This document shows, in pieces, positions 30,447-40,434 of a stretch of DNA of 59,809 bases. The notes beneath the pieces were generated by a model. It made no database searches. It saw only the letters and a list, made by a program, of their open reading frames with translations, and was not told the origin of the DNA. Made by a program: the position numbers and the translations under genes. The stretch's first letter is position 1; every line of letters begins with the position of its first letter. The stretch lies in the NCBI RefSeq assembly GCF_024490875.1, contig NZ_JACCLX010000003.1, positions 1 through 59,809 on the forward strand, given 5' to 3'. Source of the stretch: Methanocaldococcus sp. (GTDB lineage Archaea; AGJL01; Methanococci; Methanococcales; Methanocaldococcaceae).

Positions 30447-31088
30447 ATGGTTAGAGGACAATATAAAAAAGAAACAAAATTTCCTAAAAAAAACAAGCCA
30501 CAAAAATTTGAAAAATATGCTTGGGTTTTAGATTATCTACCTTATGGTTATCCTGATAAACCTGATGAGCCAATTGTTCAAGGACTTGGTGAGTATCAAT
30601 TTTTATTAATGGAGATGATCCCAAAGCCTGATACCGATATTCAATTGGGTGAAAGAGTTTATATTGGTAGAGGGAAGAGGGATAAAATAGACCATGTAAG
30701 AAGAATGATAAAATATGAGTATTTAACACCAACTGCTAAGGCAGAACTTTTATATGTCATTATGGAGGCTGTAAAGATGCAGGAACCAAGATTTATAAGA
30801 TTTTTAAATGAATGTCCCCCAATTACTACAAAATTACATACATTAGAGTTATTGCCTGAAATTAAGACAAAATACATGTGGAAAATAATTGAAGAGAGAG
30901 AATCAAAAAAATTTGAAAGTTTTGAAGATTTTAAAGAGAGAGTGGGTAAAGACCCTATAAGAATTATAGCTAAAAGAATAGAAAAAGAACTGTCAGATGA
31001 TAAAAAAGATAAATATTACTTATTTGTAAAGTGGAAAAAAGGAATAATATTGGATGAAAAAAATATGGCATATTATTTAAAAGAATAA
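30447..31088 (+). CDS. DUF655 family nucleic-acid-binding protein
   Basis: A 213-residue protein with the DUF655 pattern: basic N-terminus, [30 protein letters not shown], then helix-hairpin-helix-like C-terminal repeats ([27 protein letters not shown] ... [21 protein letters not shown]). Function unknown; an RNA-linked role is suggested by the OB/HhH folds predicted for the family and by the conserved L21e-RpoF-DUF655-KsgA gene neighbourhood in archaea. Here ksgA is elsewhere. It overlaps the convergent phosphoesterase gene by 12 bases. Confidence 0.85.
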
Positions 31089-31799
31089 ATGTGTTTTTGC
31101 AAACTCTTGTAGTTTTTTAAGAGTTCCAAAATTTAACAATCCAATATCAGTTATTCCAATAATTTCAGAATTTAGATAATCTTTTTTTATAATTTTTGAT
31201 GAGGGAGGATTGTTAATTAGATCATTCCCCGGAGACAGTGGATTAAATGCTGGTAAAACAATATATTTTCTATTTAATAAATAAATTGGAAATTTTATAA
31301 TTGCTCCTACTTCATCTCTAAGTTTTATTGAAGGATGCTCATGTCCCAAAATCCAATATTTTTTCTCTAACAAATCATTAGAAACTTTTAGATATTTATC
31401 TCCGTGAAAAATTAAATAATTATCTAATATGAAATAATCATAAACTTCATAACCAGTAGAAGAAATAAATGTGTCATGATTTCCTTTAATTAAAATAACA
31501 TTAACATATTCTTTAACAATATCAATAAACTCCTTCAATAATTTAATTTCTCTTGGATAGGGCTTAAAATTATGCTTTATATCTCCATTAATTATTAAAT
31601 TGTTAATTTTATATTTTTCAATTATTGATAATATATTTTTTACAACAATATCCTTTTGTAACAGTGGAAAATTAGCTCCTCCCTCGTTGAAAAATATATC
31701 AAAACCTATATGTGTATCTGAAATAATCCCATAATCTTTATAAATCAAACATCTATCAATTGTTATATAAAAATCTTTAATTTTAAGTTTATTTTTCAT
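31077..31799 (-). CDS. Calcineurin-like metallophosphoesterase (ICC-like)
   Basis: A 240-residue metallophosphoesterase. The two-metal motifs are ISDTHIG (residues about 26-32), [15 protein letters not shown] and ILGHEHPSI. It resembles the archaeal ICC-like family (COG1407), which sits beside helicase or recombination genes in many genomes, but the substrate is not known. It converges on DUF655. Confidence 0.85.
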
Positions 31800-31841: not shown

Positions 31842-32303
31842 TTATGCCTGCTCGACCAACAATCTTGCAGTTTCTGGAGTGTATCTCCAATCTGGTGGTA
31901 AGACTCCTCTTGACTTGTAGTATTTTACTAATCTTCTAATTTTTGATTCTATTAATTGTAATCCTCTCTTTGAGTGTAAATCCTTCGGATGCTGTTCTAA
32001 GTGTTTTCTTAAATTGACTGCTCTTCTCATTAAGTTTAATAAATCTTCTGGAACTTTTGGATATAAGCCATGTTCTTTCATAATTTTACTTATTTTTTTA
32101 CCAGTAATTAATTTAACATCTGGTATTCCATAAGTGTCTCTCAATATTAAACCAATCTGTGCTGACTGATAACCTTTCTTAGCTAACTCTACTACTAACT
32201 GTTCTACTTGCTCCGGTGTGTATTGGACCCATTCAGGAGGTTCTTTCCTGAAGGGTCTCTTTGAACCGGAGCGACCTCTTTTTCTTGCATGCATTCTTGC
32301 CAT
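31842..32303 (-). CDS. rps15: 30S ribosomal protein S15
   Basis: A 153-residue archaeal/eukaryotic-type S15 (S13e): [20 protein letters not shown], then the archaeal N-terminal extension and the core [34 protein letters not shown]. It binds the central domain three-way junction of 16S rRNA. The ATG at 32303 follows GGGTGATAATA; an in-frame GTG three codons earlier lies inside that site. The 5' end of the mRNA, including codons 10-26, is unusually GC-rich and self-complementary (see 32254-32344). Confidence 0.96.
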
Positions 32304-32344
32304 TATTATCACCCGATGGTCGCCAGTCCAAAGAGACCTGGCGT
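32254..32344 (-). promoter_or_regulatory. Long-range RNA fold enclosing the rps15 start, candidate autoregulatory leader
   Basis: In the sense strand, leader GGUCUCUUUGGAC (32338-32326) pairs with coding GUUCAAAGAGACC (32266-32254, codons 13-17) over 13 bp with one G-U. Next to it leader GCGACC (32323-32318) pairs with coding GGUCGC (32276-32271). The two helices would enclose GGGTGA and the ATG. Alternatively the leader forms its own hairpin CGCCAG...CUGGCG (32343-32338 with 32326-32321), whose 11-base loop is exactly the sequence that pairs with the coding region, so a pseudoknot is possible. A further hairpin UUCAGGA/UCCUGAA follows in codons 18-22. Confidence 0.6.
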
Positions 32345-32470
32345 TTTTAACTTTTTATTTATTTTTTTAATAGAAATGTTTTTATTTATGTTGTCAAAAT
32401 TTATATTTTAACTTTTGTAGTTTTTAATGAAAATCTATAAAAGACCTATTTATAATTTTTGGTGAATACC

Positions 32471-40374: not shown

Positions 40375-40434
40375 GGCTCAGCTGCGGGAGTAGTCATCAT
40401 ATACAAATCAGATAGCGAAATTGTCATCATCGCC
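40375..40434 (-). ncRNA. Box C/D guide sRNA (2'-O-methylation guide)
   Basis: Read on the minus strand: terminal stem GGC, box C AUGAUGA (40430-40424), a 12-nt guide CAAUUUCGCUAU, box D' CUGA (40411-40408), a 7-nt linker, box C' AUGAUGA (40400-40394), a 12-nt guide CUACUCCCGCAG, box D CUGA (40381-40378) and closing GCC. Both guides being exactly 12 nt is the archaeal standard. The D' guide is complementary to UAGCGAAAUU, a conserved 23S domain IV sequence; the N+5 rule points to the C of UAGC. The D guide would pair with CUGCGGGAGUAG; no target is recognised. A TATA-like TTATAAATAG lies about 30 bases upstream at 40470-40461. L7Ae, the core sRNP protein, is encoded at 50012-50365. Confidence 0.9.

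Follow-up and report, generated by a model that had tools for sequence, protein, structure and literature searches.

A candidate autoregulatory element of rps15 in Methanococcales that pairs the mRNA leader with early codons

Archaea have few known cis-regulatory RNAs, and searches for them are mostly confined to leaders. Within the order Methanococcales, the regulatory site for protein L1 of Methanococcus vannielii lies inside the coding region, some 30 nt past the ATG; it is a local site and is not known to have a long-range leader partner. Another archaeal r-protein mRNA, that of L7Ae, has a leader that folds on protein binding, as is proposed here, but the protein is again different from S15 and the k-turn lies in the leader only (PMC5539422, PMC6298567). 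Bacterial S15 represses its own mRNA through several different RNAs, of which the gammaproteobacterial one includes early coding nucleotides, and one bacterial survey included 25 coding bases (PMC4137082). Archaeal S15 leaders were predicted earlier by bioinformatics; the main text of that study places them in Halobacteria and Methanomicrobia only, says that they mimic the multistem junction of 16S rRNA, and finds them in operons that also contain recJ and rps3ae (Eckert and Weinberg 2020, PMC7247131). The preliminary description of the present locus, which took an archaeal analogue of the bacterial S15 leaders to be new, thus went too far for archaea as a whole, but the same main text contains no word beginning 'Methanoc' and does not describe pairing with coding sequence.

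The element described here lies at the start of rps15 (rpsO) in a Methanocaldococcus sp., in a window (the whole stretch of DNA that was analysed) of 59,809 nucleotides. Like the leaders of Halobacteria and Methanomicrobia, it is a predicted RNA structure before rpsO whose presumed ligand is S15; compared with their description in the main text of PMC7247131, it differs in that it needs codons 9-17 and that its alternative fold reaches to codon 32. Moreover, it has no significant 16S sequence likeness (in 10 leader/16S pairs, the primary sequence did not resemble the 16S S15 site to a significant degree), in contrast to the 16S mimicry reported in that text. The E. coli rpsO pseudoknot likewise involves mutually exclusive folds around the start, with early coding nucleotides in the RNA (PMC4137082), but it is an H-type pseudoknot near the start codon, whereas here a long-range nested helix with codons 9-17 faces a competing coding hairpin. 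The bacterial three-way-junction and GU/GC-type leaders share with it the S15 gene, the enclosed start and a C-G/U-G step in the conserved strand; however, the three-way-junction leaders have a third helix, at whose entry point the present element has only a 2-nt bulge, and the U-G of the step is replaced by U-A in two of the loci (L028 and L029). Searches of Rfam, including the bacterial S15 leader, gave the element no gathering-score match in the window, in L058, in L036 or in 12 loci, and at E up to 10 only chance matches appeared. Because it has neither an Rfam match nor significant 16S sequence likeness, we class it by function and not in a published structural family: it is probably, as judged from sequence, an S15 r-leader, in that it stands at the start of the rpsO mRNA and has a conserved structure with covariation from few independent events.

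The leader-coding helix in this genome

The gene, its start region and the strands of the helix are as follows.

31845..32303, minus strand: rps15 (aS15/uS15), 153 aa, with ATG at 32303-32301 and Pfam domains PF08069 (1.5e-29) and PF00312 (2.2e-20)
32308..32313, minus strand: Shine-Dalgarno-like GGUGAU, within the loop closed by the leader-coding helix
32324..32338, minus strand: leader arm of helix A, GGUCUCUUUGGACUG, 15 pairs, from the best leader-coding duplex
32254..32268, minus strand: coding arm of helix A, CGGUUCAAAGAGACC, codons 12-17, from the duplex scan and pair counts
32318..32323, minus strand: leader arm of helix B, GCGACC, with two pairs that differ in both partners between Methanocaldococcus and the others
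32271..32278, minus strand: coding arm of helices B and C, GA (codon 9) and GGUCGC (codons 10-11), from the duplex scan and pair counts
32315..32317, minus strand: bulged purine A32317 and UC, where UC 32316-32315 pairs with GA 32278-32277 (codon 9)
32269..32270, minus strand: invariant 2-nt UC bulge (codon 12), paired with codon 31 in the alternative fold
32448..32464, minus strand: promoter candidate CACCAAAAATTATAAAT, putatively BRE/TATA-like, 152 nt before the rps15 ATG

Leader positions 32338-32315 pair with rps15 codons 9-17 (32278-32254) in a helix of 15 + 6 + 2 pairs, interrupted on the coding side by the UC bulge and on the leader side by a single bulged A, and the loop of ~36 nt that it closes holds both the ATG and GGUGAU, which we take to be a Shine-Dalgarno-like site from what is generally known of the archaeal 16S 3′ end. 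The preliminary description had reported a leader-coding fold of 13 + 6 bp, in which GGUCUCUUUGGAC (32338-32326) is complementary to GUUCAAAGAGACC (32266-32254) and GCGACC (32323-32318) to GGUCGC (32276-32271). Its coordinates and sequences are correct, and its fold is real and forms part of the longer helix, the 15 pairs of helix A being those 13 together with U-G and G-C. The block is also GC-rich, as had been remarked, with a GC peak of 48% compared with 14-43% in neighbouring 100-base windows. An archaeal bulge-helix-bulge splicing motif was considered and rejected, since that motif has a 3-nt bulge on each strand, with 4 bp between them, whereas the bulges here are of 2 nt and 1 nt and lie 6 bp apart.

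The strength of this pairing was scored as the duplex energy between leader and codons 7-22 in 55 genes of the window, each compared with synonymous recodings in which the protein and its codon usage (drawn from 43 ORFs of the window) stay the same. For rps15 the duplex was -36.8 kcal/mol against -18.8 kcal/mol for recodings (z -5.55), which ranks it first of the 55, the next gene having z -1.86 and the other genes a mean of +0.27 (sd 1.08); such z-scores come partly from GC-rich codons, and hence the comparative evidence given below weighs more. These 55 genes have a single CGC codon (CGC was counted in 1 of 579 Arg codons), which is codon 11 of rps15, inside the helix, and the RNA structure accounts for such very rare codons in the gene. 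The leader motif has no second copy in the genome at up to 2 mismatches.

A transcript from the promoter candidate CACCAAAAATTATAAAT would begin upstream of the leader element. This sequence is kept, at other distances, in seven other Methanocaldococcus loci (in one with a single change), one of which is without the leader element, and because it shares bases with the start of the divergent ABC ATPase gene it is weak evidence for the transcript start. On the other side, the gene that follows rps15 (31077-31799, minus strand) encodes a calcineurin-like phosphoesterase (PF00149), and the neighbours reported for other archaeal rpsO operons, recJ and rps3ae, are absent directly after rps15 here.

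Conservation and loss in Methanococcales

In 36 genomes of the order Methanococcales, rps15 was found in 34 (30 as loci and 4 more), and the leader motif CTGG[CG][GA]A[TC]C[AG]TC precedes it in 29 of the 34. Where the scanned stretch included the motif, as it did in 28 motif-bearing genomes, the identical helix with its bulges was every time the best leader-coding duplex. Pair counts over 16 distinct rows gave 85.6% paired cells, compared with 29-51% when the partner was slid, and the covariation score was 0.182 compared with 0.123 for shuffles, none of 500 shuffles scoring as high. Four helix pairs change on both sides on these rows, and double changes fill 14 cells where shuffles give 5.9; with a slide of +2 columns there are again four double-change pairs, but 9 cells rather than 14. 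The clearest compensation is at codon 11, where Methanocaldococcus has CGC (Arg) opposite CG and the others have UCC (Ser) opposite GA, a change of two neighbouring pairs (CGC:GCG versus UCC:GGA). This change is one event on the Methanocaldococcus branch of the 16S tree, and therefore the independent compensations are few; separate double changes are U-A to A-U in L013 and C-G to U-A in L021. Within the order there are thus compensatory changes, together with joint loss of both arms, and not the loss of pairing without compensation that would have refuted the preliminary description.

Several parts of the element are more constant than the helix as a whole. The U-A and C-G pairs with codon 9 are invariant, the leader bulge is A or G in all, and codons 9-13 are synonymously fixed in leader-bearing genomes, bar one amino-acid change at codon 13. 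Ser12 is TCC, which makes up ~6% of Ser codons, in 18 of 18 leader-bearing representatives. Several genomes of Methanococcus type and some of Methanocaldococcus have lost the outer part of helix A, and the distance from helix to ATG ranges from 9 to 55 nt, with about 170 in L027. Because this distance is variable, conservation does not extend to a tight burial of the start; of the earlier proposal that the fold seals the ribosome binding site and ATG, what holds is the conserved enclosure of the start. In L027 (G022) the leader element lies 181 nt before the rps15 ATG, and the intervening stretch contains an inverted repeat, AGTTAATCTTC/GAAGATTAACT, that might draw the two arms close to each other. 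In L005 and L008, GC-rich stretches (CACTACGTTC... and TAGGGCGAAGCC...), perhaps an inserted repeat element, replace the usual AT-rich leader about 30-110 nt before rps15.

An explanation by chance complementarity or by an inverted repeat at the DNA level has virtually no likelihood left, as it is refuted by the conservation of the helix, the pair counts and the fixed codons, and nothing in its favour came to light. The first rank among 55 genes, the compensatory changes and the fixation of rare codons all speak against it, and moreover the conserved G-U pairs are not expected of a DNA palindrome and thus indicate that RNA is the conserved form.

The leader motif is absent from 5 of the 34 genomes, namely L014 (G012), which sits inside Methanocaldococcus, and L017-L020 (G028, G021, G025 and G032). 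The 16S tree, which does not include G025, forces two separate leader changes, so that there were two independent losses (for the present genome, 16S of relatives was used). In four of the five leaderless genomes, codons 10-12 have drifted, to GGA AAA TCA in L014 and to GGA GCC TCA/TCT in L018-L020; L017 retains GGT TCC, but its codon 12 is TCT. Codon 31 is GAG in 18 of 18 leader-bearing representatives compared with GAA in all five leaderless genomes.

Competing folds of the leader and the coding sequence

The preliminary description had also pointed to a local hairpin of the leader that uses the same bases as the helix, and to a further hairpin in codons 18-22. These and the associated helices are located as follows.

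32321..32343, minus strand: local leader hairpin CGCCAG/CUGGCG with an 11-nt loop (arms 32343-32338 and 32326-32321), present here, not conserved
32265..32272, minus strand: 5′ arm of helix P2, GCUCCGGU, codons 11-13, alternative coding fold
32210..32217, minus strand: 3′ arm of helix P2, ACCGGAGC, codons 29-32, including codon 31, alternative coding fold
32226..32257, minus strand: hairpin P3, GACCCUUCAGGA...UCCUGAAUGGGUC, codons 16-26, with an outer pair that is G-C, A-U or G-U

The local leader hairpin exists in this genome, but as a conserved competitor or pseudoknot it does not stand: its extra stability against shuffled upstream sequence is z -0.3, and it is kept in the nearest relatives and lost in the congeners L006 and L009-L013. 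A pseudoknot with this hairpin is rejected, given its lack of conservation and the fact that the long helix itself requires the CUGGCG strand. An H-type pseudoknot of the E. coli rpsO type is rejected as well, since the conserved helices are nested and the local hairpin that it requires is not conserved. Other lineages have different local hairpins against the leader arm, some of them strong, and local competition for this arm may thus be recurrent but not homologous. In L011 and L012, an upstream anti-arm copy CCAAAGAGACA and the leader arm UGUCUCUUUGG form a perfect 11-bp hairpin (z -8.8 and -6.4), and this anti-arm is a possible third partner for the leader strand.

The conserved competitor lies wholly within codons 10-32, where codons 11-13 pair with codons 30-32 around P3; the suggested hairpin of codons 18-22 was found over codons 17-24 and belongs to this larger fold. 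In the present genome, codons 10-32 fold at -33.6 kcal/mol compared with -12.2 kcal/mol for synonymous recodings (z -7.6), while the control stretch of codons 41-63 had z 0.2. The same z ranges from -1.9 to -8.4 in leader-bearing genomes, and in leaderless ones it is -0.6 (L014), +0.8 (L017) and -1.8 to -2.5 (L018-L020). Furthermore, the pair between codon 11 and codon 32 flips from G-C to C-G along with the leader change, so that three strands changed together. Thus, two mutually exclusive conserved folds, as modelled, share codons 11-17. Because the decisive strands lie in codons 9-32, a survey of leaders only would miss the element.

Alternatively, the RNA could be under structural constraint, for mRNA protection or slowed early elongation, and not switch. 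The variable spacer suits this explanation, but two mutually exclusive folds that are kept together and lost together are not expected of mere stability, and we regard it as very unlikely.

For comparison of energies, both folds were imposed at 37 °C in 29 genomes. The leader-coding and coding folds differed by -3.5 to +5.5 kcal/mol in 29 of 29, so that they are predicted to be nearly equal, usually with a slight advantage for the coding fold; it is uncertain how far these energies apply at growth temperature and salt, and the values at 80 °C are small and unreliable, with the imposed helix unformed in some genomes. The coding fold is the predicted MFE in most genomes and is also what departs most strongly from synonymous recodings (close relatives have z -7.6 to -8.4), as would be the case if S15 bound the fold of codons 10-32 and the leader were an anti-binding strand that releases it, with repression after initiation by a roadblock in the coding sequence. 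However, a leader that only disrupts would hardly account for the invariant CUGG/CRYC strand and the bulged purine, and the register of helix P2 differs between families, and we consider binding to the coding fold quite unlikely.

A proposed switch and a strand common to Thermococcales

We propose that the element is probably a translational autoregulatory element (r-leader) of rps15, a switch built partly from coding sequence. In the OFF fold, the leader strand GGUCUCUUUGGACUGGCGACCAUC and codons 9-17 would form the long helix with the Shine-Dalgarno-like site and ATG looped out; in the ON fold, codons 11-13 would pair with codons 30-32 around the hairpin of codons 16-26, leaving leader and start free. 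We infer that S15 is the ligand, that free S15 most likely stabilises the OFF helix through the conserved strand CUGGNNNNCRYC, and that S15 in excess would thereby lower its own translation, while S15 taken up by 16S rRNA would let the coding fold win and translation proceed. The S15-bound helix at codons 9-17 may also serve as a barrier or trap. Tentatively, and with somewhat less confidence than in the switch as such, we suggest in full that codons 11-17 pair either with the leader (OFF, S15-bound) or with codons 26-32 (ON), that rare codons are kept for a switch that extends over the first 30 codons, and that the S15-recognition strand CUGGNNNNCRYC is common to Thermococcales, where its partner would be a local hairpin. 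The element allows a direct test of archaeal S15 self-regulation in the genetically tractable Methanococcus.

A real conserved switch could respond to a signal other than S15, such as temperature, Mg2+, another r-protein or cotranslational folding. The near-equal energies of the two folds in all genomes, the strong fall in stability at 80 °C and the lack of significant resemblance to rRNA agree with such a signal. Against it, S15 autoregulates in many bacteria and, according to the main text of PMC7247131, is predicted to do so in other archaea; moreover, CUGG, the bulged purine and UC are invariant beyond the needs of pairing, which suggests recognition by a protein, and the motif strand recurs at rps15 of Thermococcales in another fold. 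A signal other than S15 therefore appears unlikely.

In the present genome the strand is located at a single site.

32315..32326, minus strand: strand motif CUGGNNNNCRYC, the sole match on either strand of the whole window

The comparison outside Methanococcales comprised loci L036-L054. In the Thermococcales (L036-L044), a conserved local hairpin, AAGGGGCGGCUGGC-N4-GCUGGCCGUCACC, stands directly before the Shine-Dalgarno site, about 12-45 nt before the rps15 ATG; its tetraloop is variable and its pair changes are one-sided only. The 3′ strand of this hairpin, CUGGCCGUCACC, begins 25-28 nt before the ATG and fits CUGGNNNNCRYC, and in the strands of both groups position 2 belongs to a U-G pair and position 10 is a bulged purine. 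No consistent leader-coding duplex was found in Thermococcus, where the local hairpin is present instead, and within 200 nt upstream of rps15 the motif has no match in the more distant archaeal loci L045-L054. The motif was defined after inspection of the data and the Thermococcales count as one observation, so that the recurrence is support and not proof. The Thermococcales hairpin, which has no Rfam match, is nevertheless a candidate S15 leader, and if the reading is true, the strand with its different partners in two archaeal groups would be a clean example of a single protein-binding site set into more than one RNA scaffold. The motif occurs once in each of five Thermococcus loci in which it was counted. 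Elsewhere in the window of the present genome, a C/D box sRNA, sR39, is found at 40376-40434 on the minus strand (Rfam RF01122, 72 bits).
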